A stretch of DNA of 64,000 bases from Parietichytrium sp. I65-24A (lineage: Eukaryota; Sar; Bigyra; Thraustochytrida; Thraustochytriidae). Under the pieces are notes generated by a model. It had not been told where the DNA came from. It ran no database searches and saw only the letters and a program-made list of their open reading frames with translations. The stretch is taken from assembly GCA_012862575.1 (NCBI GenBank), contig BLSF01000005.1, forward strand, positions 310,001-374,000, read 5' to 3'. Shown piece after piece: positions 2,472 to 61,285 of the stretch; within the stretch, counting starts at the first letter, position 1; every line of letters starts with the position of its first letter. A program made the translations under genes and the position numbers.

Positions 2472-5400
2472 TTTTCCTGTAAAGTCGCGCACGGCTCTAC
2501 GTCGCACTCCGCTTCCTTTGGGGCAAAAGCGCCGACAACGAGCCGACCTTTTTCTAGTCTTGTCTTTTCATTCTCCTTCAGTGGCCAACTGGCCAACTGC
2601 CAAAAGAAAACCTTTGCCCTGCTCCTTGAGTTCGAAACTGTACCATGTTAATCAAAACCGTGTAAAGTCCTAATGCCTGTTCTTCTTTTCTCTTTCACGA
2701 AATCTCCACCAGAGCTTGTTCATACCTCTCTCTTATTTCACCGTGGATTCAAACGCTATCTCATTTCTCGGTTCTATGCTGGAGATCTTGTATCCCGGAC
2801 CATCTCGAAGTGAAGAGATCTCTGTTCACAATAACAATATCGGTACCATCGTGGCCTCTACAAGATTCTACAAGGACGTTGTTAAGGGGCTTTTAAAGCC
2901 AAAATACTCTTGTTCTGACACGTGAGATCAGTGAGAACTGGACAAGATCACGCCAAGTTGAATAATTTTCGCTCTTCCAGGATGGGCGCGTGAAGGCACA
3001 GGTCAAGATCATGGAAATAGTGGCGCCGAGTAATCTGCTGACTTGTTGGACAATAAAAAAGCAGGCGCCAGTTTTGTCATCCACGTGTCGCCAAAGTCAG
3101 GTTGGGTTAACGGGCTCGACAGCATAACACGTTTACAATAGCTGTGCACACCGGTACAAGATAGTAACAATTCACCTGTGCAATTTGTGGCTCGTGCACG
3201 AATTGGACTGGCCGTGACTCTGCACGACAACGCCAGGTAACTGCGGCTATTGCTGCTATGGCAACGGGATGGACGCTGGCTGGATCGAGATTCCCCTGAC
3301 ACCGCTGACCGGGTCAAACTCAATGAACATTGTAGATCAATGTTCGAAACAATGAAAACAATGGAAACAGTCAGTCCTGTCGACTGTCGCACTTGCTCGG
3401 AATTGGGTGCTGCGCGGACATTCAACCACAAAGTTATTTTGGTTTCATGGCAACATTTCCACAGCGCTGCTGTAAAGCGCATGTTGATGTATTGACGAAG
3501 AGTGCTAGTGCAGTACACAAGACCAAAGATGAGTAAATTGACTGCGAATGCAATTTTTAGTATCTTACGGGACAGAGTAAGCTCTTTTTCGTTTCCAAGT
3601 TCATGTGAAGGTATTCTACAACTCGAGAATCGAGAACGAGCAAAGCGAAGAGCGAGGAAAAGTCGCGCCTGCCCACCTCTCTCGTTCTTATTATTTCTTG
3701 TTCTCGCCTTACGCAGTACATTGACCACTACCACACGGACACGGGATTTTTCAAGAAGCTACTCTACCGGTTTCTCTAAGCATCCTCCTCAACCCCACCC
3801 ACATTCAATGCCGTCCCTTCTTATGCGTTTTGGTTATGCGTCCATAGAATTCCTTCCAATTGACACTTGAGGACTATTGAACACTATCCGTGTCTTAGTA
3901 TCCACTTCTTCTCCCCTGCACACCTTCGCCACTGTGCACACCTTGGCTCCTAGAGGCTGTTAGAAAAGCTCTATCATAAGACCAGCGGTTTTTCCTAAGT
4001 GAGAAGAAGAGTCGAGCTCGCTCCCAAAAAGTCTTCAGCACGAGCATTGTTTGCAAAATCAAATTGATTGATGGACCGTCTTTTTTTGGACACGAAACGC
4101 AACAATGGGAGGCAGAAATACAGTAATTGAAATTGTAGAGGGTACCGACAGTACTAGTACAGTGCAGTGCAGTGCAGTGAAGGACAAGGGACAAGGGACG
4201 TGAAGACGAGCAAGAAATGAACAAGTATTTGTGAGTTGCGTGCACAAGTCGAACCAAAAAAGGCAGGCATTCTGTGCCATGTCAACACATGACAAGTGGA
4301 TTCGTGATTCATTACAACAACTTCATCCCAGACAACTAGCTTTCATTCATTCTTTCTTTCTTTCACACTTTTGGTGTTGTGTCTCAAATCAAGTTTGATC
4401 TTGATCGAAAATCCAATCTCGAATGCAATCAATCAAATAAACAGACAAACAAACAAATAAACAAACGACAAAGAACGGCAAGGAAGTCAGAGTTGCACCT
4501 GTTCACAGCTGAGATAGTCTATTTTGTTTGCTTTTCAATCAAAAATAGAAATCAAGACAAAAACAAAAACAAAAAATAGTCGGTCACAAGTATCACTCAC
4601 TTGGTCTTGTGCCAGCGTTTGAAAGACAGACACACGGCCCTTTCGAAACCTAGTGCCCGGCTAAATAATTGCCTAGCATGCGATGCCACGTAGTTGGGGT
4701 GGCACGAGACGCAGCGTAGTGGAGGTTAAAATGCTCTACCCCTTCCTCTTCCCTTTTTCGCCAGAGCAGCAGCACTCGTGCCTTCTTCTCTGCTCCAGGT
4801 GACGGTTATCAGCCGCTAACGCAAACCAGTAGTGCCGTTTCCGCACGCATCGTTTCCTGCAATCCCCTCTCAGCCACGCGCTACCCCCCCGCCAGCGCAA
4901 ACGCTAATGAGCCGCTACCTTGGAAACCTGCCTATTCGTTTATCCTAACATCGTCATATCCCTCGCCCCCTTACAGCTGCCTATGCCTGAACTATGGAAT
5001 GGCTTAAGGTTGTGTAGTAGGGCTGCTGGGACCTGATATATTGGACCACATTTTTCGGCCCACATAAGGAACATTATGAAAAAACAAAAACATGTGTTTT
5101 CCGATCAATCAAGATGACAGTGAAAATATTAAAAATAGAAAAGAATGAAGATTGCAAGGAATGGAAAGAAGCTAGGAATTCTGCACACCAATCAGCTCAC
5201 ACTCTAAGGCCCGGCGCTTGGCACTCTTGGCACACGCTTATCGCCGACCAAAATTGACTTGCTCCTTCGCCCTCAATCCACGCCTCCAAAACTAAGGGCC
5301 CAAGTACAGCGGCCCATTTCCCGACCGCTACACCGCTACGCACTCTCACATCTAGCGCTAGCACTCCCTCTCCCCTCCCTCACACAACCCACACAAGCCT

Positions 5401-24384: not shown

Positions 24385-27300
24385 CTACGATACATTTGTT
24401 TGAAATTTTTGCCAAATCAGCTCGTCGCGATGGAAGGCAGCCTCCCCGGGGTCTGATCGAGACCGCGCCAGTCTGTTTCGCGGAGGGACTGAGGCAGCTC
24501 TTCGCTTCTCTAGTTTTCGAGATGCCGTCATGGAAGCAGACCAAGGAGGAAGAGGTGGTGGCGGCATTGAGCCAGCCCGTGCCTTCGCAAGGATTTGTAC
24601 GGACTTTGTGCTCTGCGCCCGGCTACGTGACGGCCGGGGTACTGAGCTCGAAGACTGGCTCGATGCGACAGATCCTCGGCGACTTGGGCTAGTTCTCGGA
24701 AGCTCAGGAGCCATGGGAGGCGACGGTGGGGGAAGTCGGGAATCGATCGGCTCGCTATTGTTTCTGCGGAATTGGGAAGGCTTTGAGGGAAGCGCCTTTT
24801 GCACGGTTTGATCGCCAAGACTGGGAATCGTGTTCGGAAGCGAGAATGACTTGGGCACGTCTGGTGTCTCCGGTGCTCGAGGAAGTGACAGTTTGGGTGT
24901 GTTACCGATCTTTTGGACGCCTTGTTGCTCTTGGTACATTTCTGTCAGGCTTGTGAGAGCCCGGACCCACTCCCGAGCGTTTTCTGGGCTGGCAGCTTGG
25001 AACCGGTGGACTTTTGTCGCTTGTAGGTCCCGGTGTACGTGGACCTCAATCTCAAACTGTGCGTTTCCGGTATCGCCCTCTGCCGAACTTGATGACTGGT
25101 TGTCAAGTGACTTGCTGCTCGACCTACTCCTTGTCGAAGCATTGGACCTTGAGCGCTTTCGAAGACTTTTGCGGCGGGCTTCATTTACCACCATCTGGAC
25201 GCGGATCGCTCCCCGAATATTGATCGTCTTGATCAGATTGATGTACACATTTCCATACCCGGAGGATATCATCTCTTTGTAGAGTATGATCTCTCCTATG
25301 GGCTTGAGAACCATGTACACCTCTTGGTTGTTCTTCAGCCTTCTTACCCAACCTTCGTAAGCCACTTCTTTGCATAACAGCTCCTCCCGATATTCGAGCT
25401 CGGAGAGGCGGTCGTCCATGGCGCTCCTATCTAACGTTGGCGGCGGAGCAGTTTCCATTGCATCAGGAAAGGCAGCTTCGATGATGATGTCAGCTTCAAG
25501 CTCTGGCTCAAGCTCCTTATTGGTCTGATTCCGAGGAGACATGCTCGGATCGACCTTCATGCTTCTACTCGAGTCGCTTTTCTGCTTCTTCTTCTTCTTC
25601 TTTTCGGCCCCTTTGCTTTCTTGCAACAGAAACGGCGCCTACAGCACGATGCCACTCCACATGAACACGACAGACCACCTCCCGTTTCACTCACCCGACA
25701 ACACAGGAACTCAAGCTTTCCCCTAAAATATATCCCAGAAGCGAGCAGACTAATACCGATGCACGTTCCAGCTGCAATTCCAATTATTTTCTTGAGACTC
25801 ATTTTGTGCGTGTCGTCGGAGTCCGTCAAGGAGGAATCAACGGTGGGGGACGTAGTTTGCTGCGAATCGCAATCCTCCGAGCAGATCCCTCCGCAGTCCA
25901 CCCCGCTCTCCACGTCATCCTGAACTCCATTCGAGCACAGATAGTTCTTCACCAGGGAGACTGCCAAACACCCTTTGGAACTGGACACGTAACCCTCTGC
26001 ACAATTGAGATCCTCCGTGGAACAATCGTAGTTCTCGTTTGGAATACGCTTCGTCCCGGCAAAGCAGTCGCAGCGCCCAACGGAAGGCAAACATTTTCCC
26101 GCACCGCCACACACAAGTCCTGAAGATGCTTCCTTTGGGCAGCTATGCATCACAAATGGACAATCCGAGATGCAACAGTCTGCGAGACCTGTCCCACATG
26201 CCTCGCCGGCTTCGCATACTCCGTTCCCACAACTTGCAACTGGTATGTTGCCTACCGAGGCATATGATGTCCCGTTGCATACACCGAGGTCGTCGATATT
26301 CTCGCAACAAAATCCTATTGCGTCCAAAGAGCTGCAGCACTCGCCGTTCATGTCCACGTATTTTGAAGATCCACCGCACACGCCACAAGCATCAATGCTA
26401 TCGCCATCGCAGCAGGAGCCGCTCGAATCAACAAGCTGGTTAGCGGAGCAACACACTCCCGCTGGTGTCAAAGGACCTTCGCATTCACTGACCAAGCTGA
26501 GACCAGAGAGACTTTGCTGAGTCGCGACCCCTCTTTTCGTCACCTTGGACAAGCGACGGCGCCCGCTGACATCACACAGTATCCCGCAATTTTGAGAAAA
26601 GAGCTCCGAGTCACAGTCCTCTCCTTGATACTTGGAATAGTCGGCTGCAAGACACCAGGAGTCCTCACTCCCAAATATCGGTACCACAGGGTCGCAGGGA
26701 AATGAGTTGCACGTTCGCTCCTCCTGAGATAGTAGCGCTCCCAGGGCGCTGTATTCCGTTCTTGTCGCCTTGCCTGTGCCTCCACAAGAAGCTGAGCATT
26801 CTGACCACTTGACAGTGCTGTCGCAATCCGCAGAAACGCCCAAATCCAAAGAACACGCCTCTGGAGCCAACAGTCTACCAGAGCTCAAAGCTCGACACTT
26901 GTTCCTGGTCCATTGCCCACATATTCCATCCAGATTTGGCTCCTCTACGATCTTCGGCACGCATTCGTTAGTGCATGACGATTGCAGAGTCAGGGATGAC
27001 TTTAGCTCACCGTTACAGACTGAGGCGTCCTCAACTACTTGCCCAGTCTTCGGAACGACGCACTGTGCAGTGCGAGTACGGTACATACCTGAATCCTCCT
27101 CGGAACATTCACCGGTGCACTCTGTCCAGTCACTCAGGAGCCATTGCCGGCAAAACGATGGCGAGCAGGATCTTGTCCTCTCTACGGCTTGTTTGCCTAA
27201 AAGCTCACAAGGTGTGTATGAGCTGGACGACCACGACAACAGAGCCCTGGAGGTCTTGCACGTTACCGTCCTCGTCTGTGATCCCAATACGGTACAAGAA

Positions 27301-28409
27301 CTGTTGCTTGACAAAGAACAACTGCCCCAGTCTCCCGTGCTGAGATAATACACTGATGTGATCTCCATGTTTGTCTCTGAAAGACTAACGGGTTCCTCTG
27401 CTGCAGGGACGTACAGAACCGATGCATCACTGTGATGCAGTCGGATTGCACCAAGAGCACTCACTGCCTTGCCTCCCCACAGAATGGATGGAGTCCACTC
27501 CGAGCTCCCGGACTCTATTATAGACTTGCCGATGAGGAGCAAGGAAGATGAGTCGGCATCTTTGGCCCATATGTCCGCCTCTCGCGTGTATGTGGAGGAT
27601 AGTTTAATGACTGCCTTCGATGCACTTGCTTTCGTGCTCCAAGATATTGATACCACTTCAGATACAGACGCTTCCTCGGGCAGTTGCAGCTCATAGTCCG
27701 TTCCCAAGTTCAGAAAAGTAATTGGAAGGGGGTCGGCGCTAGACCGCAGTCCACAAACGTCTTCAGCAACCAGAGAGACGCTGGGGCCGCTGGCCAAGGC
27801 CGAGAGCGAAGATGAATTTAGTACGGCAATTCCATTCTCGAAATCTGAGAGGGTCAAAGCACTCTGATCACTGTCGCTTTCAATGAACTGAAGACTTGCG
27901 ATCTCATAAAGCTCAGCGTCAAAGAGCTGAGAGATGTCTATATTCACCACAGCTTGCGAGATATTCATAAAACTGATTAGCACCGATTCGAGCTCGCTTT
28001 TACGAGTAGGAACGCCCCTGTCTTGATTGCAATGACAGGAGCCGGAGCTTACATTGAATTCCCAAGCCGAGTGCAAACAAACGCAAGTGTCTCCAGCGAC
28101 TGTAGTGGAAGCGTCGCTCGGGCATGTCTTGCACAGCTCTTCATCGTCGCCATACGAGCCTTTAAAGGTGCCTTCCGGGCACGCAATGCATTCAGCTGGA
28201 TCGTAATTTGATCTGTACTTCCCCGGGGGACAAACGCACTGGTGCAACACCTCGGAAAACCCATCGACGCAAGTGCACGCCTCGCCGTCAAACTCTGCAT
28301 TGTCCTTGCACCGAGCCGCTCTGACTGTTAGTTGCGCATGGCCCAGGCGGAGAAGCAGCTGGAGGCCGACGAGGCAGAGAGCCAGCTTTGCGCTCCACAT
28401 GGCGCCCAT
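24385..28409 (-). CDS. Single-pass membrane protein: EGF/TSP1-type ectodomain, TM helix, cytoplasmic PH domain (two exons)
   Basis: Exon 1 is 28409-25695 and exon 2 is 25638-24385; together they give about 1322 aa. ATG 28409 opens a signal peptide (LALCLVGLQLLLRLGHAQ). The ectodomain has Cys-rich EGF/ephrin-receptor-like modules (CVCPPGKY, CPEGTFKGSYG), then TSP1-like modules (WTECTGEC, WSECSASCGGTGKATRTE) and later CGVCGG-type Cys repeats. A helix (IIGIAAGTCIGISLLASGIYF) crosses the membrane. Exon 2 has a Lys-rich start, a PH-like domain (YEGWVRRLKNNQEVYMVL to HRFQAASPENAREWVRAL) and a Pro/Ser/Arg-rich tail. The join is inferred: GTGAGT donor at 25694, CTGTAG acceptor, both exons in phase 0, and exon 2's open frame ends exactly at the acceptor. 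Unspliced, exon 1's frame stops at 25557. The alternative is two genes overlapping by 4 bp. Ligand unknown. Confidence 0.78.
25639..25694 (-). other. Predicted 56-nt intron
   Basis: Minus strand, donor GTGAGT and acceptor CTGTAG, phase 0. It has no stop in the upstream frame, so retention would read on into a different frame of exon 2. The polypyrimidine tract and branch site are weak. Confidence 0.7.
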
Positions 28410-34897: not shown

Positions 34898-36949
34898 CTA
34901 CATGGTGTTGCTTCGCTTAAACCTGTAGCGATCGTCGTCGTCGTCATTATCACCCTGGCCAGTTCCTCCGCCTGCACTTCCCACTGGGCCGGAGGAAGGC
35001 GGCGCAACAGCTACCGACGCTGCCTGCTTAAGCCTTGCAAGACGCTTTCTATAAGCATCAGCTGCGGCTTTTTCTCTTGCGAGCTTGGCCTCCCACTCCG
35101 TTCGCAGGATTCCGCCGGGGCCACCGGACGACAAAAGCTCCTCGGCGCTAGGCCGCTTCACAGGGTCTTCTAACAGCATCATGCGAACGAGATCTCGCAT
35201 CGGCGGTGTTAATCGACCGAGCGCCACCTCGTCAAGATTCCCGTCCCTAATGTCATGCCACTCCTGGCCGTTTGCAGGCAACTCGCGATATAGGCACATT
35301 TCGTACAGACTAGCCCCAAGCGAGAAGATATCCCCCTTGGGCAAATTCTCGTACTCTTCGTGAAGGACCTCTCTTGCCAGGTATCGGGAGTCCCCCTCCT
35401 CGACGCTCTCAAGGAACGATCGCGCCCGACTTGATCTATTCCTGCCGTGTTCATTGTGAGACGCCTCAGCATCTGCGGAGGCCTCCCCTTCGCTTGATCC
35501 TCTCGACTTAGTCTCTACGTCAAGACTCTGAATTTGAATGTGCATTCGCGCCATGCAGGCGTGGCCAAGGTCACCCACTTTGTACACTCCATGCTTGACA
35601 AAAATGTTGGCGGGTTTGATGTCGAGATGCACGAGGTTTAGCTTGTGGAGCTGCGCAAGGCCCTCCAGTACCTGTCTGGACATGTCTTTCGCAACAGCGT
35701 GAAGTCCCCCGGGATAGTCTCGGTCGCGAATCATGTCCTGCAAGCTCTTATCGCACAATTCTGTCTGGATGTACAAATGCCCGTCTTCCATGAAGGCGCT
35801 AAAGTATCTCACCACATGCGGATTTTCCTCTGTATTGCACAGAGCAGAAAGAGCATAGACTTCCTTCAAAACCCGCTCCTTGTCCAGCTTGCCCTTGAAG
35901 CGCTGTTTCGTCATCTTTACAGCGTACATGCACCCATCAAGACGATTTCTGCACTTGAACACAGTCCCAAACGATCCACCTCCAAGAACGCCCAATTGCT
36001 CGAACTCGTCTTCGAAGCGCGAAAAGGTCCGCTCTGCTTCCTCATCTTTTCCGATGCCCCCGAATGTATGGCGTCGAGGCGAGCGCTTCGCGGGCGGCTC
36101 TGGTGGTTGTGGGGTCTTGGAAATGTGTTTGATGCGCCTTCGTGAAAAGGGCTCCGGCTGCGCGAGTCCGCTTTTGCATATTGCAGGTGACGCAACAGGC
36201 GAACCAATATTGTCGACATCCTTCACCTCCTCCTCTTCGTCAATGAGAACTTCGTCTTCGCCCTTACTGCGTAGCCGATTACCACGCTCCTGGGCTTGAC
36301 TTGGCGTCGTGCACGGAGGCATAGAACTGTCGCTACTTTCTGAACAAAATGAATGGTCAGGTTGGTCGCCCTCCTGCTCGCTGCCAGCATTGCTTTGCAA
36401 GCTGCATATTCTTCGAAGTTTGCGACATAGTAGGTCGGGGCTCGAGAGTTCCTTTGGAGGAGATGCGAGCTCTTCGCCAGCACGCCTTGCTGAATCATTG
36501 TCGCCACATCTATCGAATGCGCCAGAGAGCCTCGCAGGCTTGAGTGGCGACGGGCTCGCAAACTCCCTGCTCTCGTCAAAAGAGCCCATCCTCGACCTTA
36601 GCGTCGAGTCAAAAGTGGTAGACGGACTAGACAAGTACGGGGTTGACTCTTCCCGGAACGCAGTAGACCCACCTGTGTTCGGGGCGGTGTTGCACTCAGT
36701 CTCCTGGGATGGAAAGAATGGATTGACAAATGTGCGGTGCCTTCTGTGAGACCTCAACCCGCCGTCACCTTCGTCTGAAGACGGTGTTGATGCATATCTC
36801 CTCCGCCTCATGTTCGACGCATTACTCTCTGGAGTGCTGAACAGAGTCTTCCTAAACCTTCGCACCGGGGACTGGGACTCCTCAGGCCTTGGCCCTGTGC
36901 TCAGCGCATCGCCAAGTTCCGGTCGCGACCTTCGTGAAGGAGTCTGCAT
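34898..36949 (-). CDS. WEE1: WEE1-family cell-cycle kinase
   Basis: A 683-aa protein from ATG 36949. WEE1 phosphorylates the inhibitory Tyr of cyclin-dependent kinase 1 and delays mitosis, acting in the nucleus. The first 300 residues or so are disordered and rich in Ser/Thr-Pro, typical of CDK feedback sites. The kinase domain begins near residue 315: glycine loop LGGGSFGTVFKCRNRLDG, AVKMTK lysine, KEVYALSAL helix, then YFSAFMEDGHLYIQTELC, strongly WEE1-like. The catalytic loop is HLDIKPANIF, and the DFG position reads GDLGHA, the DLG variant typical of WEE1/MYT1. About 40 residues (an SRGSSEGEASADAEAS-type acidic insert) interrupt the activation segment before GDSRYLAREVL. There is no C-terminal transmembrane helix, which argues against MYT1. 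The tail has a coiled stretch and an Asp run. Single exon. Confidence 0.93.
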   Translation of the reverse strand: MQTPSRRSRPELGDALSTGPRPEESQSPVRRFRKTLFSTPESNASNMRRRRYASTPSSDEGDGGLRSHRRHRTFVNPFFPSQETECNTAPNTGGSTAFREESTPYLSSPSTTFDSTLRSRMGSFDESREFASPSPLKPARLSGAFDRCGDNDSARRAGEELASPPKELSSPDLLCRKLRRICSLQSNAGSEQEGDQPDHSFCSESSDSSMPPCTTPSQAQERGNRLRSKGEDEVLIDEEEEVKDVDNIGSPVASPAICKSGLAQPEPFSRRRIKHISKTPQPPEPPAKRSPRRHTFGGIGKDEEAERTFSRFEDEFEQLGVLGGGSFGTVFKCRNRLDGCMYAVKMTKQRFKGKLDKERVLKEVYALSALCNTEENPHVVRYFSAFMEDGHLYIQTELCDKSLQDMIRDRDYPGGLHAVAKDMSRQVLEGLAQLHKLNLVHLDIKPANIFVKHGVYKVGDLGHACMARMHIQIQSLDVETKSRGSSEGEASADAEASHNEHGRNRSSRARSFLESVEEGDSRYLAREVLHEEYENLPKGDIFSLGASLYEMCLYRELPANGQEWHDIRDGNLDEVALGRLTPPMRDLVRMMLLEDPVKRPSAEELLSSGGPGGILRTEWEAKLAREKAAADAYRKRLARLKQAASVAVAPPSSGPVGSAGGGTGQGDNDDDDDRYRFKRSNTM

Positions 36950-38202: not shown

Positions 38203-39265
38203 GAACCCTGGCAAAGTTGAACGAGGCATATGTGTACATCACACAAAACTGATCAAAACTGGCGGCTGCGCTACACCAGTAACACAACAATTGATCTTCT
38301 CAACTCAAGGGTGCCGTTGAGAATTCTTAATCTGAAAAAAACAAGGAAAGAGTGGGAAGGAAACTGCACCAACTGCACCTGACCGTGATCCCGCAGCACC
38401 GGGGCAACCCCAGCGCCAGGTTGCGCCGACAGTTAGACTCCACATCGCACACGTTCTTTCAAACACGATTTGAATTTCCACCTTAATTGCCCCACAGTCT
38501 TGGAGCAATTTACTACACAAGTTCTAATGAAAACCTCCTTGAGCGGAGAGAACCTCTCCGGGAACGTTCACGAATTCACTGGGGTTCCTCGACGGTTGCC
38601 GGTCGAAAATGGTCAAAACAAGTTGAACTTGGTCAAGAGAGTCAAGAGACAAGAGAAAACAAAAAAGAAACTGAACTTGAAGTGGGAGAGACAAAGAGAC
38701 AAAGAGACGAAGAAGCTTGCGCCTTTCGGGAACCCAAGTTACGACGCGAAGTGGGGTTCGGCGTATACATATATATTTCAAACGTTGCACTGGCAGCAGA
38801 AGGCAGTGCTGGTGAGCCTGAATACCGAACTACTGACAGAGAACAAGCAAGCACTGCAACAAAAGACCAGTTGAAGGACGTGCCGGCGTCTCACAAAGAC
38901 CGTCCACGACTATTTACAACTCTTCAAGACTGCCTGACTGAAGAAACGCCACTGGCTCGCTGGCTCGCAGCGAAAGATTCTGGATCAAGGAGGCTGTTTT
39001 AGTCATTCCTCTCAGGGCGGGCCCCGGGAGTTTCTGCGACTCTGAAAAACCAATCGGGAGTCATGAACCAGAGAAGTTGATTGCAAACTTGGCATACTTA
39101 CTTGGCACAAATAATCGCAGGAGCAGAGTTCAGAAAAGACCAGCGGTTATCTGCTGTGGAGAGCGAAGCGTAGAAACAAGACTCAAGTGAAAGGCGGTGG
39201 CGAGAGGCCCACGAAAGGAGACGAAAGTTCGCAAGTCTGGCAAGGACGGGAGCTGACGGGAAACT

Positions 39266-42200
39266 ATGCCCCCGCCTCAAAGGCTCCTGAACCGTCGGGC
39301 TCCGTCTCGCCCGAGCTCGAGCGCGAAATCCTCAAAGTTTGCTGAAGGAGACCAAGTTCAGGCCAAGTACAAAGGCGGGCAACGGTTTTTCTCTGGCGTA
39401 ATTGCCAAAGTGCGCGGCGATGGATCGTACGACATCGACTACGACGATGGAGACAGAGAAAGCGGGGTGCTAGAGCACAAGATCAAACCTGGTGGATCCA
39501 CCGGAGTATCCGGGCCATCGGCGGGATCGCGCCCGCCGGCCAGGAGGCCTTCGCCGATGTCAGGCTCCAGGAAAAGCGAATCGGCTCTCGTGCAGGAACT
39601 GGCAAGGAAAGGCAACAGTCCGCGAGACGTGGAGAAGTACCTCGGCGCTTTCGAGCTGTATGATGGCATGGGGGATGGGAAAGTCAGTGCCAGAGACCTT
39701 GGCAGAGTCCTAAACGGGTTCAAACTCACATTTTCACCCGGGGACATGAGAGACGCGATGACGGAATTTGGCGATGGCAGATCGCTCAACTATCGCTCAT
39801 TTTTGGACGCCGTTCAAGACGCGGGAGGCGGTTCCGGCGGAAGGGGGCGCAATGCGATGGACAGCGCTCAGAGCGACTTCACAGATGAAGACGCTGACGA
39901 CCGCGGCCGTGACCGTCAGGGCTTTAGCCGTGGTGAAAAAATAGAAGCCAAGTACAAAGGCGGGAAAAAGTATTACACGGGAACTATACATGCAGTGAAC
40001 CGGGATGGTACTTATTCCATTCGGTATGATGACGGCGACCGTGAAACAAGTGTTAAAGCCAACATGATTCGCAGAGTAGGCGAACCGTCGCCTGTCAGAA
40101 GTCCAGCAAGAGGTTCTCGTGGCGCCGATCAGATAAAGGACTTACTGGAAATGCATTTAGGCGGTAAACAAGTGCCAGACGGAAAGCTGCAGGATCTTCA
40201 AGACAACTTTGAGATGCTTGATCAGGATGGTACTGGGCAAATTGGGTCACGAGAATTCGAGAGAAATGTAGAGCGAGCCCGAATCGGGCTTGACTATCGA
40301 ATGATCAAGGAAATTGGAGAGGAACTGGCGGGAACTGGCGGCAAAGTAAAGTACAAGCCTTTTATCAAAGCTCTTCGAAACCTAGCTGGCGGGGGCAGCG
40401 GTGGCGGCGGCGGAGCAGTGAGGAACTCTCCTGTCCGCCGCAGCACTAGCCGCGGGCGTTTTATGGAAAGTGAAGAAGATGAAGACGTGGCGGGCGGCAG
40501 CAAAACCACGTATAAACCTGGGCAAGCTATCGAAGCAAGGTACAAGCGCGGAAAAAAGTATTTCCCCGGCGTTATCGATCGCGTGCGGCCCGACGGATCT
40601 TGCGATATCATGTACGACGACGGCGATTCGGAGCAGCGAGTCAGCAGCGCCCTCATTAGAACCGTGGGCGGAATAGGAGAGAGTGACACCGCTGGACAGA
40701 GCGACGGTGGAGGCTTCCGAGAAGGCCAGCGCATTGAGGCAAGATACAAGAAAGGGCGGAAATACTTTGGCGGAGTCATAACAAGAGTTCGCGCAAACGG
40801 TACTTTTGATATCGACTATGACGACGGGGACAAAGAAATTCGAGTACCTGCGGATTTGATAAAGGCTGTGGACAGCGGTGTCGATCGACGCAGCCCAGAA
40901 AGATCAAAGAGCCCGAGAGCCCGTCGAGGCATGGGTGGCGGGGTCATGAACAGCGAGGACGATGGTCCGGGAGGCTTTAAAGAAGGGCAACGTGTTGAAG
41001 CTCGGTATAAGCGGGGTCGCAAATACTTTCCAGGTGTCATCGAGCGAGTTCGACCCGACGGTTCTTGCGACATCATGTACGACGACGGGGACTCGGAAAC
41101 CAGAGTTCCGGCCGATCTCATTAAAGCCAAGGGCTCTGGAGGTATTGGTGGAGGTGGTGTCATGAACAGCGAGGACGATGGCCCGGGAGGCTTTAAAGAA
41201 GGGCAACGTGTTGAAGCTCGGTATAAGCGGGGTCGCAAATACTTTCCAGGTGTCATCGAGCGAGTTCGACCCGACGGTTCTTGCGACATCATGTACGACG
41301 ACGGGGACTCGGAAACCAGAGTTCCGGCCGATCTTATCAAAGCCAAGGGCTCTGGAGGTATAGGTGGAGGTGGCGGGGTCATGAACAGCGAGGACGATGG
41401 CCCGGGAGGCTTTAAAGAAGGGCAACGTGTTGAAGCACGGTACAAGCGGGGTCGCAAATACTTTCCAGGTGTCATCGAGCGAGTTCGACCGGACGGCTCT
41501 TGCGACATCATGTACGACGACGGGGACTCGGAAACCAGAGTTCCGGCCGATCTCATTAAAGCCAAGGGCTCTGGAGGTATTGGTGGAGGTGGTGTCATGA
41601 ACAGCGAGGACGATGGCCCGGGAGGCTTTAAAGAAGGGCAACGTGTTGAAGCTCGGTACAAGCGGGGTCGCAAATACTTTCCAGGTGTCATCGAGCGAGT
41701 TCGACCGGACGGTTCTTGCGACATCATGTACGACGACGGGGACTCGGAAACCAGAGTTCCGGCCGATCTTATTAAAGCCAAGGGCTCTGGAGGTAGTGGC
41801 GGAGGTGGCGTTATGAATAGCGAAGATGATGGTCCTGGTGGATTTCATGAAGGCGATAAAGTCGAGGCGAGATATAAAGGCGGGCGAAAAATGTATAAAG
41901 GAGTAATTGCTCGTGTGAACGTGGACGGCTCGTGTGACATCAAATACGATGACGGAGATTCAGAGCGACGGGTAAAAGCAGAGAATATTACGAAGCTAGA
42001 AAGTTCGAGATCCCCTCGCCGCCCAGGCGCAATGAGATCATCTTCAAATTCGCGATCTCCAAGGGATATGACCACAGATGATAGCGCTGCTGATGACAAG
42101 CTTGCCGTAGGTGACCGAGTTGAGGCAAAGTACAAGGGTGGTGCAAAGTACTTTAGAGGAGTCATTCGGAGAGTTTATCCCAGTGGATCATGCGATATCG

Positions 42201-45200
42201 ACTATGACGACGGGGATTCTGAACAGCGGGTCCCGTCACGAAACATACGAAAAATCTCCTCCGGGAATGCTCGGGCGTCGCGCTCTCCTAGTAAGGGACG
42301 CCAGAGTGGAGCGATTGAAAAAGGTTCACGCGTGGAAGCAAAGTACAAGGGCGGAGCAAAATTTTTTAAGGGAACCGTTAGTAGAGTAAATCCGGATGGA
42401 AGCTTTGCGATTTCGTACGACGATGGCGACCGTGAACTTCGTGTTCCTGCTAGCCGGGTGAGACTACTGGAAGATGCACTCGTAACCACCGAAGCGTCTG
42501 ATACAGATGCCCCGGCCGAGAACATCAGAGAGGGTGACGCTGTTGAGGCGCTGTACAAAGGTGGCCGAAAGTACTACAAGGGGGTCGTGAGTCGTGTCAA
42601 CAGGGACGGCTCGTACAACATTCAGTACGATGACGGCGACTCTGAAAGAGCGGTCCCCCCGGAGAAGGTTCGAAAGTTGCACACAGGAGATGAGACTTCT
42701 GGAACGGACGCTGCGCCGCTTGAACGTGGAGACGCTGTGGAAGCAAGATACAAGGGCGGAAATAAGTTTTACAAGGGTAAAATCATGCGAGTCAACATCA
42801 ACGGGACCTACGACATTGCATACGATGATGGCGATCGTGAAAGAGGCGTGAAGGCAGTCGACGTTCATCGTTCCGGGCAATCAAGTAGTCCTCGCAAAAG
42901 CGCTACCCGAACAAAAGCTTTAGGGGTTGGATCCAGCGTAGAAGCAAAGTACAAAGGAGGGCAAAAGTACTACAAAGGAAAAATCACTCGGGAAAATGCC
43001 GACGGTACTTTTGACATTGCCTATGATGATGGTGATCGAGAGCGCCGAGTCGCTCCAGAAAAAATTAGGTCTCTGGACGGCGCTGATAGCGCGCTGGAAC
43101 CGAGCAGCGAGACCGACGGGGAGGCAGGAATCAAGCGCGGAGATCGTGTAGAAGCACGATACAAGCGTGGAAGAAAGTTCTTCCCTGGCAGGGTGACTGC
43201 TGTGAACTCCGACGGTTCGTATGACATTGCCTACGATGATGGCGACTCTGAAAGGCGCGTGCCAGCTAGTTTGGTCAAGTCAGTACAAAATTCTGCGAGA
43301 CGTTCTCTCTCAAGAGAGCCGCGTGCAAATGACCCCTTTTCTAATGGAGAAGTGAGCGATGCTGCGACATTTGCCCGTGGAGACCGAGTTAAAGCACTGT
43401 ATAAGAACGGTCGAAAATACTACCCCGGTAAAATAGCAAGGGTGAACGTGGACGGGACCTATGACATCGCCTTTGACGATGGAGATAGCGAACGCCGTAT
43501 GACGGTGGACAAGATCAGGAGTCTCGAATCAAGATCTCCTCGGCAATCGGTTGGACGAGGGCGAGCATCACAAAGTCCAGGGCGGAGTCGTATGTCACAG
43601 AGTCCATCTGCAAGAACAGCTGATGACAGACTCAAGGTCGGTTGCAAGGTAGAGGCCCGTTACAAGAACGGCCGCAAGTACTTTTCCGGCAAGATCACTC
43701 GAAGAAATCCAGACGGAACCTTTGACATTTCATATGACGATGGAGACAGGGAGCGTGGGGTCACTTCTGATAAAATCCGTTCTCTGGAGCCTAGCGCTCC
43801 GGAGGGCGACTCCGAGCTGGACGAGATTAGTGTGGGCGATCGCGTAGAAGCAAAGTACCGTGGCCGCCAAAAGTATTACGCTGGTACGATTATTGCTGCA
43901 AATAGGGATGGCACGTTCGATATAGAGTACGACGATGGCGACAAGGAAAGACGGGTGGTGCCTCAAAACGTGCGCAAAGTAGGGGGTGGAAGCCGGCATG
44001 CTGATGTCAGGAGCTCGCGCTCTCCGCGGAGCCCGGCTGCAATCTCTGCCGGGGACCGCGTAGAGGCCAGATACAAGAAGGGTCGAAAGTTCTACAAAGG
44101 CACAGTCGAAAAGGTTGGCCGCGATGGAAGCTTCGACATCCGATATGATGATGGGGACTTTGAGCGCGGGGTTATCCCCGAATTTGTCAAAGCCCTCGAG
44201 TCCAGGAGCCCCAAGCACGACGCAAGGCGGGCGAACGTCGGTTTCGAATCGGAAGGAGAAGAGACCGATAGACAGTCTTTTTCGAAGGGCGCTCGGGTCG
44301 AGGCGAGGTACAAGGGGAAGTCAAAATATTACAAAGGAACGATCGTGCGAGCCAATGCAGATGGGTCCTACGCCATAGACTACGACGATGGAGATCGCGA
44401 GCTTAGAGTGAAACCAGAGCTCATCCGCTCAATGGACGGACCAAGGTCTCAGTCTCCAGTGCAGAGACGAGGAGGGTCGCTGCGCCGTTCACCAGCGGCC
44501 GCGGAGAGCGAGTCTGATTCTGACCCCAGTGGAGTGCGTGTCGGCGATCGCGTCGAAGCACGTTATAAAGGTGGCCAAAAATATTACAAAGGCGTTGTCA
44601 AACGAGTGCATGGCAGTGGCGCGTGTGACATTGACTACGACGACGGCGACTCAGAGTCGCGAGTCCCGCCAAGGCTCATCCGCTCACTGCAAGATGAGGA
44701 AGGAGGTGATGAAATTGCTGAGCTCCTTCGAAGGGTGTTGAAGAAGAGCGTTCGAAAAGGCACTCTTGAAGACTACCACCAAGTCTTTGATATGTTTGAT
44801 CGCAATGATGATGGGTACATCAGCCGTCCCGAATTTGGTCGAGCCCTGGATAAACTTGGTCTCAAGTTCACTCATGGCGAACTCAATCAGCTGATGAAGA
44901 AGCTCGACCGAAACAGGGACGGTAAAATCAGCTACAAGGAATTCATTAAATTAGTGCATCCCAACGATCGACACACGGCGCGATCTTCGCCCTCCAGGAG
45001 GAGCACAAGCCCTAGCAAGCGGGCCAAGTCACCCTCTCGAAGGCGCGATGACTCCAGCGTGAGCTCAGGCACCTCGTCATCGAGTGGGAGTCGAGGAGCA
45101 CTCTCTCGGCTTGCGAAGTCTGGGAGAAGGGTTTCGTCGTCTCGGCCAGGCTCGCGAAGGCGAAGCTCAAGTCGCAGAGGGTCACGTTCAAGAGACCGTT

Positions 45201-47221
45201 CTTCATCGCGCGCAAGCTCCGGTTCTGGATCCACAGCTTGGTCGGAAGAAGGAGACGATAGTGCTGCAAATGAAACCTGGGAAAGCGACAGCGACGCAGA
45301 GCAAGACCTCGTCTTGCAAAAGTTCGAGGCGTATATGGGACGCCGAATCAGCAAAGACAAGAAACAAAAGTACAAGCGTGTTTTTGGAAAAGTCGATCGC
45401 AAGCACTCAGGTAAGATTCGCAGTGATGAGCTGGAGAAAGTCCTGAGATACATGGGCGTTCGTAAGAGGGTCTCTAAAGCCCTCCAGAAACGTCTCGTTG
45501 AAAAGTATGGACGAGGTTCAAGTTCCTCAATCTTTTACAAAGAGATGGTAAGCGGCTGCAAAGAGGCGTTTGAGCTGTCAAAGGATGGCGAGCCGCCGAC
45601 GTTCGAGGGACAAGTGGAAAATGTCTTACAGCGATTCCGAACCTTGGCAACCGGAAAAGACGTGGCCCAGGAGCTTGGTGCCCTGGACAAACAGAATGAT
45701 TTGCTGCTACCTTCCAAAGCTATTGTCAAATACTTGATCGGCCTTGGTTTCAAGAAATCGGAGAGGCCTGTCCTTGCCAAATTTCTTGCTTTGTTTGAGC
45801 CTGAGGGAGTGAAGGGCAAGATCCCCTATCAGGATTTCGTTGCTTTCTGCTCGAGCAAAGACGCGGCGAGGGCCGAACAATTGCCCAACTGGAAACGCGC
45901 AATAACCGGGCTGGATATTAAGAATGGGATGAATAAATTGCGCGAGGAGCGGGAGAAGCGAGAGCGGGATGGTGTAGACCCACTCGTTTGGCAGGTCTTG
46001 AGCAAGCTTCGCCAAGTCATTGCTGACGCGCTGAACTCGGGAATCGCGAAAGATTTTAGTGACGCATTCGAAATGTTTGATATCAACAAAGATGGCAAGA
46101 TTGACAGTGATGAAATGGGGCAAGCACTCGCGAAGCTGGGTTTTGATGTTAACGCAGAAGAGGTCAAGAAAATTATTACCAAGCTCGACCCTGACGGGCA
46201 GGGACAGAGTGTAGACTACCGACACTTTCTTATGTATTGCACTAGAGGTTCCGATCGGGACCAGTGGGCACTTGGTCCAAATGGCGAGGTGGTTGGCACC
46301 ACCTACGCTGGCGAGCTTGAGAGCGCTGTGAGGCAAAAGATAAGAAAGTCTGCGCTGGTTAAGAAAACTGGCCATCACTCGCTTTTGCGAGTGTTTCGCT
46401 CATATGACAAGGAAAATCGTGGATATGTAGACAAGAAGGTCTTGCGCAAAGTTGCTACAAGCTTGAAATGGGAACTCACCAATGAAGACTTGGCATGCCT
46501 GGTGGCAAGGTTCGATTTGAAAGGTGAAGACCGGTTTGCATACAAAGACTTCATATCTTTCTTGAGCCTTGATGACGACGCCGTGTACAATGTTGAGCAG
46601 CGTGTGATCGAGTTCGTGGCGTCTATGATCCAAAAAGGGGCGGACATGAAAGAGTGCTTCGACTTATTTGACCGTAATCGCGACGGGAAGATTTCCGCAA
46701 AGGAGCTTTGCTCAGCAATGATGAAGCTAGGCTTTCCTGTTGGCGAGTCAGAATCAAAAGAGCTGATACGTCGCATCGACGTGGACAGGGACGGAAAAAT
46801 CAGTTTTGTTGAGTTTATCAGGGCTTTTGCGCCACGACAACCCCAAGGTGGGGTGACGCTTGCGTTGCAAGATGAAAATCAAAATTTAGCTAATGGGGGT
46901 GACTCCGGAGTTGCTCAGCCGCTTGCTCTGCTAAACGACAAGCCTTACTTTACGGGAGGATTTTCAGATTGGACTGGCGGTCTCCTCGATCCTAGCACGA
47001 GTGTCCCGCTTGCGCCAAAAGGCTCGGTTGGAGAATGGCTGGAGAAAGTTGCTAGTCCAATGGAGAAGAGAAATTTCTTTGCCTTCTTGCAATTGGTGTC
47101 CAACTTTGAACAGACACTCGGTCTGCAGCAGAACAGATCGGAACCAAATTCGACGTCAGACGGAGAAGTGATACTCCAACTCGGGACGAAGCTCAAAGTT
47201 TCCATGAAGTTTCACACCTAG
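39266..47221 (+). CDS. Giant protein with 21 Tudor-like repeats and multiple EF-hands
   Basis: A 2651-aa single-exon protein from ATG 39266. From about residue 26 to 1810 it carries 21 copies of a 50-residue module of the form GDRVEARYKGGRKYYKGVI then VNxDGSYDIxYDDGD then ERRVPxxxIR, resembling Tudor/Agenet beta-barrels. Charged Ser/Arg linkers such as SRSPRRP separate them. EF-hand-like pairs interrupt the array near residues 115-190 and 290-370. The C-terminal 840 residues contain at least five canonical calcium loops, e.g. DRNDDGYISRPE, DRNRDGKISYKE, DINKDGKIDSDE, DRNRDGKISAKE and DVDRDGKISFVE, preceded by an Arg/Ser-rich stretch. Calcium binding is expected from the loops. Tudor folds usually bind methylated Lys/Arg or act as scaffolds, but the aromatic cage cannot be judged here. 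No TM or signal peptide. Possible roles include a calcium-responsive scaffold in cytoskeleton, cilium or nucleus. Function not assigned. Confidence 0.9.
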   Translation: MPPPQRLLNRRAPSRPSSSAKSSKFAEGDQVQAKYKGGQRFFSGVIAKVRGDGSYDIDYDDGDRESGVLEHKIKPGGSTGVSGPSAGSRPPARRPSPMSGSRKSESALVQELARKGNSPRDVEKYLGAFELYDGMGDGKVSARDLGRVLNGFKLTFSPGDMRDAMTEFGDGRSLNYRSFLDAVQDAGGGSGGRGRNAMDSAQSDFTDEDADDRGRDRQGFSRGEKIEAKYKGGKKYYTGTIHAVNRDGTYSIRYDDGDRETSVKANMIRRVGEPSPVRSPARGSRGADQIKDLLEMHLGGKQVPDGKLQDLQDNFEMLDQDGTGQIGSREFERNVERARIGLDYRMIKEIGEELAGTGGKVKYKPFIKALRNLAGGGSGGGGGAVRNSPVRRSTSRGRFMESEEDEDVAGGSKTTYKPGQAIEARYKRGKKYFPGVIDRVRPDGSCDIMYDDGDSEQRVSSALIRTVGGIGESDTAGQSDGGGFREGQRIEARYKKGRKYFGGVITRVRANGTFDIDYDDGDKEIRVPADLIKAVDSGVDRRSPERSKSPRARRGMGGGVMNSEDDGPGGFKEGQRVEARYKRGRKYFPGVIERVRPDGSCDIMYDDGDSETRVPADLIKAKGSGGIGGGGVMNSEDDGPGGFKEGQRVEARYKRGRKYFPGVIERVRPDGSCDIMYDDGDSETRVPADLIKAKGSGGIGGGGGVMNSEDDGPGGFKEGQRVEARYKRGRKYFPGVIERVRPDGSCDIMYDDGDSETRVPADLIKAKGSGGIGGGGVMNSEDDGPGGFKEGQRVEARYKRGRKYFPGVIERVRPDGSCDIMYDDGDSETRVPADLIKAKGSGGSGGGGVMNSEDDGPGGFHEGDKVEARYKGGRKMYKGVIARVNVDGSCDIKYDDGDSERRVKAENITKLESSRSPRRPGAMRSSSNSRSPRDMTTDDSAADDKLAVGDRVEAKYKGGAKYFRGVIRRVYPSGSCDIDYDDGDSEQRVPSRNIRKISSGNARASRSPSKGRQSGAIEKGSRVEAKYKGGAKFFKGTVSRVNPDGSFAISYDDGDRELRVPASRVRLLEDALVTTEASDTDAPAENIREGDAVEALYKGGRKYYKGVVSRVNRDGSYNIQYDDGDSERAVPPEKVRKLHTGDETSGTDAAPLERGDAVEARYKGGNKFYKGKIMRVNINGTYDIAYDDGDRERGVKAVDVHRSGQSSSPRKSATRTKALGVGSSVEAKYKGGQKYYKGKITRENADGTFDIAYDDGDRERRVAPEKIRSLDGADSALEPSSETDGEAGIKRGDRVEARYKRGRKFFPGRVTAVNSDGSYDIAYDDGDSERRVPASLVKSVQNSARRSLSREPRANDPFSNGEVSDAATFARGDRVKALYKNGRKYYPGKIARVNVDGTYDIAFDDGDSERRMTVDKIRSLESRSPRQSVGRGRASQSPGRSRMSQSPSARTADDRLKVGCKVEARYKNGRKYFSGKITRRNPDGTFDISYDDGDRERGVTSDKIRSLEPSAPEGDSELDEISVGDRVEAKYRGRQKYYAGTIIAANRDGTFDIEYDDGDKERRVVPQNVRKVGGGSRHADVRSSRSPRSPAAISAGDRVEARYKKGRKFYKGTVEKVGRDGSFDIRYDDGDFERGVIPEFVKALESRSPKHDARRANVGFESEGEETDRQSFSKGARVEARYKGKSKYYKGTIVRANADGSYAIDYDDGDRELRVKPELIRSMDGPRSQSPVQRRGGSLRRSPAAAESESDSDPSGVRVGDRVEARYKGGQKYYKGVVKRVHGSGACDIDYDDGDSESRVPPRLIRSLQDEEGGDEIAELLRRVLKKSVRKGTLEDYHQVFDMFDRNDDGYISRPEFGRALDKLGLKFTHGELNQLMKKLDRNRDGKISYKEFIKLVHPNDRHTARSSPSRRSTSPSKRAKSPSRRRDDSSVSSGTSSSSGSRGALSRLAKSGRRVSSSRPGSRRRSSSRRGSRSRDRSSSRASSGSGSTAWSEEGDDSAANETWESDSDAEQDLVLQKFEAYMGRRISKDKKQKYKRVFGKVDRKHSGKIRSDELEKVLRYMGVRKRVSKALQKRLVEKYGRGSSSSIFYKEMVSGCKEAFELSKDGEPPTFEGQVENVLQRFRTLATGKDVAQELGALDKQNDLLLPSKAIVKYLIGLGFKKSERPVLAKFLALFEPEGVKGKIPYQDFVAFCSSKDAARAEQLPNWKRAITGLDIKNGMNKLREEREKRERDGVDPLVWQVLSKLRQVIADALNSGIAKDFSDAFEMFDINKDGKIDSDEMGQALAKLGFDVNAEEVKKIITKLDPDGQGQSVDYRHFLMYCTRGSDRDQWALGPNGEVVGTTYAGELESAVRQKIRKSALVKKTGHHSLLRVFRSYDKENRGYVDKKVLRKVATSLKWELTNEDLACLVARFDLKGEDRFAYKDFISFLSLDDDAVYNVEQRVIEFVASMIQKGADMKECFDLFDRNRDGKISAKELCSAMMKLGFPVGESESKELIRRIDVDRDGKISFVEFIRAFAPRQPQGGVTLALQDENQNLANGGDSGVAQPLALLNDKPYFTGGFSDWTGGLLDPSTSVPLAPKGSVGEWLEKVASPMEKRNFFAFLQLVSNFEQTLGLQQNRSEPNSTSDGEVILQLGTKLKVSMKFHT
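40946..41812 (+). repeat. Four near-identical 216-219 bp tandem units inside the giant gene
   Basis: Units begin at 40946, 41162, 41381 and 41597; a diverged fifth starts at 41813. Each encodes VMNSEDDGPGGFKEGQRVEA, the rest of one Tudor-like module and a KGSGG linker. They differ at only a few third positions, plus one extra Gly codon in the second unit's linker. All other modules of the protein have diverged widely. Confidence 0.92.
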
Positions 47222-59590: not shown

Positions 59591-59776
59591 GTTCTCGCAG
59601 ATTTTGCGGTTCTTGCGGTTGCCGGGTCCCCCTTCGCCATCGTGGATTAAATAAATCTCTTTCACTCCTTTCACGCGCGAGTGATCAGACCGCGTGGCCG
59701 CGCGGTAGACATACACCCGCAATAGAGCGCGAAAACGGTAGGCAGAAGCGGTAGGAAGCGGTAGGAAGCGGGCGCA

Positions 59777-61285
59777 ATGGACGACGAGGTGCGGCGAGTG
59801 GTGGAGGACTTCATCCAGGGAAAAAGTCTGAAATATGTCAAGCTCAAGGAGGTGCGCGAGCATGTGAGCGTGATGCTGGGCGTGATGCCCAAGAAAGAGC
59901 AGATTATGACGATTCTACTCAACTTGCAAGAAGGAGAGAATGCCAAGGACGCCGGTTCCGCGATCGCGCAGGGCAGCGCCGCGGACGGGGACGGGGACGC
60001 TCACGTTGGGGATGATAATGAGGAGGACGAAGATGAAGAAGAAGAGGAGGAGGAGGAGGACGACGAGGAAGATCAGGATTACGAGGAGGGCGACGGCGAT
60101 GAGGATGCGGAGGAGGAGGAAGAAGATGGAGAGGACGACGGAGAGGACGAAGGGTCCCAGGTGAAGCCGTCGTCGATGTACCGGCGCAAGTACTGGCTGA
60201 CGCAGCCGCTTGTAGAAGTGGTAGGTTCCTCGAACGCTACGCTGTACGAAACGATAAAGGCGGTGAACAAGCATATCCGCGATTATCAGCTGTCCAGCAC
60301 GGAGGACCTGAAGGAAATTTACTGCAACACTGTGCTCAAGAGCATCTTTCACCGAGACAAAATCGATGTCTCGGAGATTCGCCCGCTGCTGAGAGAGCAA
60401 TTTCAGCAGCTCACGGCATGCGCGAGTGAGGTAGACGCGGACGGGAAACCGTCTTCGCGCTCTGTAAAGCGGCCCGCAAAGAAAAAGCCCAAGCGTTCAG
60501 AGGCGCGGGGTGGATTCGGAGTGCAGGCGCTCGTGATTTCCCCGGCCCTTCGTGAGCTTGTGGGCGAGACGGAAATGACTCGCACCAAAGTGGTCAAGGC
60601 AGTCTGGAAATACATCAAGGACAACAACCTTCAGAACCCGGACGATCGCCGCAAGATCTTTTGTGACGAAGCTCTGTACAAAGTTTTCCGCAGGGACGTG
60701 ATCAATATGTTTCAGCTGAACAAATACCTGACAGTACATCTCATGACGCAGGAGCAGGCAAACAACGGGGAGCCGTTCCCGCTGCATTTGTTAGATTTGA
60801 CACAGGAGGAATTCGACAAAGCCAAAGGCCCTGAGAGCAAGTCCAAGAAACGAAAGCGCGAAGCGAAAGCTACTGCGGACCAGCCAAAAAAGAAGAGGGG
60901 TGGTTTTAAAGCCAAGGTGCCACTTAGCGAGGAGCTCTCGAATTTCATGGGCGGACAGCCCGAAGCCACTCGAGGTGAGGTGGTCAAGCAGCTGTGGGTG
61001 CATATCAGAGCCCACGGCTTGCGCAATCCCGCTAACAAGCAGGAAATTGTCTGCGACGACGTACTGCGCAGTTTGCTTGGCCAGGATGTTGTCACTCAGT
61101 TTAGTATGAACAAGTATATCCAGCCGCACTTCATCAAAGGTGGCGCAAAGAAGCGAGAAAGCTCCCCCGCCTCTCTTGAAGATGTGGGCCATGCTGGGAT
61201 TGGCCACGACCACTTGCATCACGATGTGCAGCACCATCACGTCCTCCATGACCACGACCAAATCCCACAAGACTCTGAGGTCTAG
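59777..61285 (+). CDS. DEK_C plus three SWIB/MDM2 domains, chromatin-associated protein
   Basis: A 502-aa protein from ATG 59777. Residues 1-55 match a DEK C-terminal-type helical domain (RRVVEDFIQGKSLKYVKLKE). A long acidic run (about 70-125, almost all Asp/Glu) follows. Then three SWIB domains: about 135-215 (YWLTQPLVEVVGSSNATLYE, DLKEIYCNTVLKSIF), about 250-330 (LVISPALRELVGETEMTRTK, DRRKIFCDEALYKVF) and about 385-465 (LSEELSNFMGGQPEATRGEV, NKQEIVCDDVLRSLLG). A Lys-rich NLS-like segment (KKRKREAKATADQPKKKRGG) separates the second and third. The tail is His-rich (HDHLHHDVQHHHVLHDHD). SWIB domains occur in SWI/SNF BAF60/SWP73 and in chromatin/rRNA transcription proteins such as yeast UAF30. 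Three in one chain is more than usual. The nuclear role is inferred. Confidence 0.9.
   Translation: MDDEVRRVVEDFIQGKSLKYVKLKEVREHVSVMLGVMPKKEQIMTILLNLQEGENAKDAGSAIAQGSAADGDGDAHVGDDNEEDEDEEEEEEEEDDEEDQDYEEGDGDEDAEEEEEDGEDDGEDEGSQVKPSSMYRRKYWLTQPLVEVVGSSNATLYETIKAVNKHIRDYQLSSTEDLKEIYCNTVLKSIFHRDKIDVSEIRPLLREQFQQLTACASEVDADGKPSSRSVKRPAKKKPKRSEARGGFGVQALVISPALRELVGETEMTRTKVVKAVWKYIKDNNLQNPDDRRKIFCDEALYKVFRRDVINMFQLNKYLTVHLMTQEQANNGEPFPLHLLDLTQEEFDKAKGPESKSKKRKREAKATADQPKKKRGGFKAKVPLSEELSNFMGGQPEATRGEVVKQLWVHIRAHGLRNPANKQEIVCDDVLRSLLGQDVVTQFSMNKYIQPHFIKGGAKKRESSPASLEDVGHAGIGHDHLHHDVQHHHVLHDHDQIPQDSEV

Follow-up and report, generated by a model that had tools for sequence, protein, structure and literature searches.

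The PH domain (PF00169) and the thrombospondin type 1 (TSP1) repeats (PF19035, PF19030) are the described modules closest to the two halves of a gene at positions 24385 to 28409, minus strand, of the window, the whole 64,000-nucleotide (nt) stretch of a contig of the thraustochytrid Parietichytrium sp. I65-24A that was analysed. In PH domains, a K-x(n)-K/R-x-R motif near strands 1 and 2 is a phosphoinositide-binding signature. Compared with PF00169, the PH domain of the window gene carries a Ser/Arg-rich insert, lacks K-x(n)-K/R-x-R near its start and sits behind a predicted transmembrane (TM) segment. TSP1 repeats are represented in the window protein by one sub-threshold match, whereas a paralogue on contig C4 passes the TSP1_ADAMTS model; here the repeat is joined with DACGVC/CGNGVCE modules, a TM segment and a PH tail. 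The two halves lie in different frames on either side of a 56-nt putative intron. In human cDNA data (PMC1831480), short introns with weak splice sites tend toward retention, and the putative window intron, as read from the genomic sequence, resembles those retained introns in being short and in having weak signals and exon-like GC. The locus is probably a single gene for a PH-tailed, single-pass type I surface receptor, from whose transcript a weak 56-nt intron is removed and whose tail serves as a docking module.

The gene belongs to contig C5 of a 42.5-Mb genome, and the window has a GC content of about 0.52. Its open reading frames, all on the minus strand, comprise a 905-codon frame followed by a 417-codon PH frame. 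The first is open from 28484 to 25557, and from its ATG at 28409 exon 1 (25695..28409) would encode, as judged from the open frame, Pfam and hydropathy, a signal peptide-like start, a Cys-rich ectodomain and one TM segment. The signal peptide-like N-terminus (MGAMWSAKLALCLVGLQLLLRLGHA, 28335..28409) is drawn from hydropathy, which peaks at 1.62 at residue 2, its end point being set by eye rather than by a signal-peptide predictor. A TSP1-like stretch occupies residues 531-572 (26694..26819), with 21.8 bits to PF19035 and, as the single weak TSP1 match of exon 1 among solved structures, E 0.035 to CCN3 chain 6rk1. A juxtamembrane Cys module of DACGVC, CGNGVCE and EGF-like parts (25968..26450) precedes the predicted TM segment (IIGIAAGTCIGISLLASGIYF, residues 875-895, 25725..25787), whose hydropathy peak of 2.03 is the maximum over the 1322 residues of the protein obtained by joining the frames without the 56-nt segment. 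Exon 1 ends with the residues RGKLEFLCCR. The putative intron (GTGAGT...TGTAG, 25639..25694) has GT-AG ends and joins the frames in phase 0 to exon 2 (24385..25638, 417 codons plus stop), which is read from its open frame and Pfam match as a basic linker, a PH domain and a Ser/Pro-rich C-terminus. The sequence (AAG)6 CAG AAA at 25579..25602 gives KKKKKKQK in the PH frame and, one frame over, most of KRRRRRSRK. The PH domain with its insert (24946..25359) scores 24.8 bits against PF00169 (E 3.4e-5), and the match is over the full domain (positions 3-103 of 105), including the C-terminal Trp (REWVRAL). The frames, coordinates and phase 0 that a first-pass annotation had given are confirmed, as are the minus strand and the GT-AG ends at 25694 and 25639.

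Two paralogues in the same genome show the same parts in single frames. In a whole-genome search, for which the ectodomain match lists are lower bounds, the window ectodomain matches a 3539-aa frame on contig C62 with 51% identity over 76 residues. With the C62 ectodomain as query, the matches are the window gene, a 2294-aa frame on C4 and two weak EGF-type hits, on C82 and C52, neither with a TM segment in the frame parts examined; among the matches listed for the C4 ectodomain at E<=0.01 are only C62, the window gene and C4 itself. The C62 frame reads as a signal peptide-like start, 12 Ig stretches, PKD, TSP1, EGF, TM and PH, and the C4 frame as a signal peptide-like start, PKD, TSP1_ADAMTS, a sub-cut-off EGF match, TM and PH; both N-termini consist of Met plus a hydrophobic stretch. 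TSP1_ADAMTS (cut-off 23.8) is passed by C4 with 35.7 and missed by C62 with 19.8, EGF is passed by C62 (30.3, cut-off 24.3) and missed by C4 (17, cut-off 22.1), and PF00169 (cut-off 25.1) is passed by both, with 27.1 in C62 and 32.7 in C4. The juxtamembrane Cys module (DACGVC, CGNGxCE, EGF-like) of the window protein is 49% identical to that of C62 and 43% to that of C4, with 46 invariant columns, and the place aligned to the window TM segment also holds a TM segment in both. The paralogues differ from the window gene in their longer ectodomains, with Ig and PKD in C62 and PKD in C4, and in having no intron at the TM-PH junction (absent in both). The C62 gene, at about G000:C62:217563-228179 on the minus strand, is a case of animal-like extracellular modules in an intron-poor genome.

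The order signal peptide, Cys modules, TM, PH is thus found in C62 and C4, and in the window gene once its frames are joined. The same order in single-frame paralogues is strong evidence that the two window frames are one protein, and supports the assignment of both to a single gene for a putative TSP1-like/Cys-rich, TM and PH protein, as the first-pass annotation had proposed. Of the further TSP1-TM-PH proteins for which it had suggested a search, C62 and C4 were found in this genome, and the viral contigs scanned gave no relatives of either exon. Among 30 PF00169 loci, two of which share a frame, five have an in-frame upstream hydrophobic stretch and none lies behind a recognised Cys-rich ectodomain, in a survey limited to 1.5-kb flanks.

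Whether the 56-nt segment is an intron was judged against 22 introns placed in kinase, kinesin and PH domains by domain continuity, with only GT-AG pairs sought. Acceptors were chosen from lists of GT-AG candidates by the same continuity, the acceptor of locus L062 being read by eye; the 22 leave out L056, whose acceptor is unclear, and a second interruption of L062, and they were drawn from some of the partial matches to kinase and kinesin models. Of the 19 interrupted loci examined, 18, all except L056, regain their domain once a GT-AG intron with a GTRNGT donor is taken out. The placed introns measure 68-137 nt (mean 92.4) at a GC of 0.37-0.50; their donors are GTAAGT in 18, GTACGT in two, and GTATGT and GTGAGT in one each, their acceptors CAG in 13, TAG in eight and AAG in one, and 18 of the 22 have CTRAC near the 3' end. 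The putative intron, GTGAGT..TAG, follows the rule of the genome (GT..AG with a GTRNGT donor and a YAG acceptor), and its donor and its acceptor each occur in other introns (1/22 and 8/22). In a frame-error control, in which one-base changes were made at 3000 random places in 20 open reading frames of the genome, a frame-restoring GTRAGT..YAG pair of 38-145 nt appeared in 3.7%; a chance pair being this rare, removal of the segment as an intron is likely.

Codon statistics also point to a change of frame by 25638, since the stretch 25638-25560 scores +6.8 bits of codon log-odds in the PH frame and -7.1 in the frame of exon 1. The 56 nt themselves (25694-25639) score -4.2 bits in the frame of exon 1, a value that 1.8% of the windows within exon 1 itself match or undercut. 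Around the junction 143 GT-AG pairs would join the frames, and 25694 is the only GTRAGT donor among them. Its next YAG partners, at 113 and 170 nt, were tried and set aside; the 113-nt acceptor has almost no upstream pyrimidines. An ab initio GTRAGT scan gave six clusters against four, one and three in controls, which is little excess. A scan free of splice motifs for neighbouring coding frames over 220 kb returned 13 junctions, whose coding scores are mostly weak; they include the window junction, for which the 56-nt pair ranks first among the candidates. RNA around the putative intron folds no better than shuffles, and a second copy of the junction was not found in the assembly.

A number of observations weigh against a single PH-tailed receptor gene with a spliced 56-nt intron. 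On the protein side, the PH match of the window protein lies below the PF00169 cut-off of 25.1, the genome-wide PF00169 list holds it only as a partial match of 22.5 bits, again under the cut-off, and the TSP1_CCN match (PF19035) falls short of its cut-off of 27. The cytoplasmic tails of the three genes are barely alike in sequence: exon 2 as a genome query finds only itself and a C14 match, the C62 tail finds only itself, and in BLASTP the window PH domain gives nothing with the second PH-like stretch of C62 (PH2, identified by eye only) and only E 0.018 with the PH domain of C4. The intron is an outlier in four respects, being shorter than all 22 placed introns, richer in GC (0.55 against a maximum of 0.50), devoid of a CTRAC branch-point motif, with only TTCAT (YTNAY) 27 nt from its end, and equipped with a donor that a single placed intron shares. 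Its motif score of 6.4 compares with 9.7-13.0 in the first 11 placed introns, on a measure devised here after those 11 had been seen, the second set being unscored, and 18% of the simulated frame errors reach the same score. By a synonymous-codon measure, 10.7% of exon 1 windows are as low as the retained stretch, which is not telling. The C14 match of exon 2 (29%, E 5.9e-5, in a 4138-aa frame) was rejected, as a scan of the first 3247 residues of that frame showed DUF908, DUF913 and UBM but no PH domain. Searches at E<=1 returned no EGF model in Pfam and no match in NCBIfam for the window protein, and exon 2 has no relative among solved structures at E<=0.1. The names TSP1, EGF and PH of the first-pass annotation accordingly apply in part to the paralogues; in the window protein itself TSP1 and PH are sub-cut-off and EGF has no model match at E<=1.

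Much of this would suit an unspliced gene in which a one-base length difference, arising in the assembly or in the strain, falls within the homopolymer-rich 25585-25614, so that the Cys-rich, basic tail would be a normal juxtamembrane part. Such a frame error would account for the lack of an intron in both paralogues, for the outlying properties of the putative intron and for the ease with which simulated errors yield an equally good false one, and synonymous codons are compatible with coding through the segment. The first 30 retained codons also include six for Cys, a count reached by 0.66% of the 1981 dinucleotide shuffles without a stop and by 0.09% of the 1075 mononucleotide ones (judged post hoc); a palmitoylated juxtamembrane region might show such an excess. 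The Cys excess would fit this rival, or chance. Opposed to it are the sufficiency of a GT-AG intron in nearly all interrupted loci examined, the rarity of GTRAGT..YAG pairs among the simulated errors and the codon log-odds, and a frame error is on balance doubtful. The balance is put at about three to one in favour of a real but weak intron over a frame error, a judgement and not a computed posterior. A -1 ribosomal frameshift would also join the frames without splicing, as AAAGGGG (25614-25608), a homopolymer-bearing heptamer of slippery type, lies in the zero frame required, from which slipping back by one nucleotide leads exactly into the PH frame. As a second codon GGG slips poorly, the RNA downstream has no unusual structure (z of -1.25; 19 of 200 shuffles fold as well), and such a heptamer has by our estimate a chance of about 10% in an overlap this long, which makes this reading scarcely credible. 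A pair of independent genes, one for a membrane protein that ends at 25557 and one for a PH protein that begins with the ATG at 25560, would be in keeping with two frames that are each open by themselves and with the ATG at their overlap. The PH start would then fall within the coding region of the other gene, the 78 nt upstream of it already have the codon statistics of the PH frame, and two paralogues have the same parts fused in one frame, so that this arrangement is very improbable.

The first-pass annotation had seen in the intron a possible switch between two modes of inner-leaflet attachment, with regulated retention giving either a PH-bearing receptor or a PH-less form with a Cys/Arg-rich tail. 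As it had noted, the frame of exon 1 meets no stop in the 56 nt, and the TGA at 25557-25559 overlaps an in-frame PH ATG at 25558-25560; the tail of the open retained reading (25557..25694, including TGA) counts 45 residues and not 46. Regulated retention draws on this open frame and on the short, weak and exon-like character of the intron, which places it in a class associated with retention in human transcripts (PMC1831480) and makes some retention plausible. Exon 2 is moreover open to its stop, so that no later intron would be needed and no exon-junction decay signal would be expected. A 56-nt body with the given ends is, however, stop-free in 68.7% of 5000 dinucleotide shuffles; the stop-free reading is expected by chance and is no evidence. 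Nor does the basic character of the tail come from the intron: none of its 15 Lys/Arg is encoded wholly there, 14 being encoded wholly in exon 2 and one by a codon straddling the 3' splice site. Eight of the 15 belong to KRRRRRSRK, which arises from the AAG-run stretch by a shift of one frame, Lys AAG turning into Arg AGA. In the spliced form, LCCR stands six residues beyond the TM segment and six Lys follow 12 residues later; with Cys and polybasic features in both forms the contrast in attachment is small, and the PH domain is the real difference. Retention would further turn more than 1.1 kb of former coding sequence into 3' untranslated region. The intron is absent from both paralogues and no other relatives were found in these searches, so that the tail is not conserved, and the switch is not supported; regulated retention is unlikely. 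Little credence can likewise be given to a version in which the weak, exon-like intron acts on an adhesion receptor as a valve, either leaky or regulated, with the PH domain added by splicing and replaced on retention by the Cys/Arg-rich tail, while (AAG)n keeps the juxtamembrane part basic in both frames and both forms stay attached to the inner leaflet, so that only the signalling module is switched. The AAG run (25579-25604, minus strand) in its own right encodes basic residues whether read as AAG (Lys) or as AGA (Arg), two of the three frames, and a change of frame thus leaves the stretch polybasic.

The PH-tailed receptor with a spliced intron would then work as follows. Behind the signal peptide, its ectodomain of TSP1-like and Cys-rich/EGF-like parts may bind a ligand or another cell, and would be followed by one TM segment, a short basic linker and the PH domain. 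In the canonical mRNA the weak 56-nt intron would be removed ten residues past the TM segment, giving the 1322-residue protein, and the TM segment, the LCCR motif and the K-rich linker would keep the tail at the inner leaflet. The PH domain may act as a docking module. K-x(n)-K/R-x-R is missing near the PH start in C5, C62 PH2 and C4, while C62 PH1 has only KGWLWKKSR; protein partners or generic acidic lipids are therefore likelier than a specific phosphoinositide. Since the intron is short and weak, a share of the mRNA probably stays unspliced and would give a PH-less form with the 45-residue basic tail; that form is most likely a by-product and no regulated isoform.

Other frames of the window and the genome are of separate interest. 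At 39257-47218 (plus strand) of the window a 2654-aa frame combines 12 Tudor_5 stretches with EF-hands, an unusual combination. A protein kinase model at 34901-36949 (minus) is matched in two stretches, so that the kinase probably has an insert, and a 506-aa frame at 59765-61282 (plus) has three SWIB/MDM2 stretches. Elsewhere, G000:C7:19811-27643 (4460 aa, three acyl-carrier stretches) and G000:C66:7956-22997 (5583 aa, five) are single frames and perhaps large modular type I polyketide synthase genes; no frame with a long array of acyl-carrier stretches was found in the genome.

A limited look at the literature found no description of the combination of TSP1/EGF/Ig, TM and PH, which is weak evidence of its absence from print. 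Of these results, the family of three PH-tailed receptors is the one to keep. In an intron-poor genome, three receptor-like proteins combine animal-type modules (TSP1, EGF-like and, in one, 12 Ig) with a cytoplasmic PH domain. Should they be displayed at the surface, they would amount to a receptor design that does without a kinase, and would offer a simple setting in which to study signalling by a PH domain tethered to the membrane.

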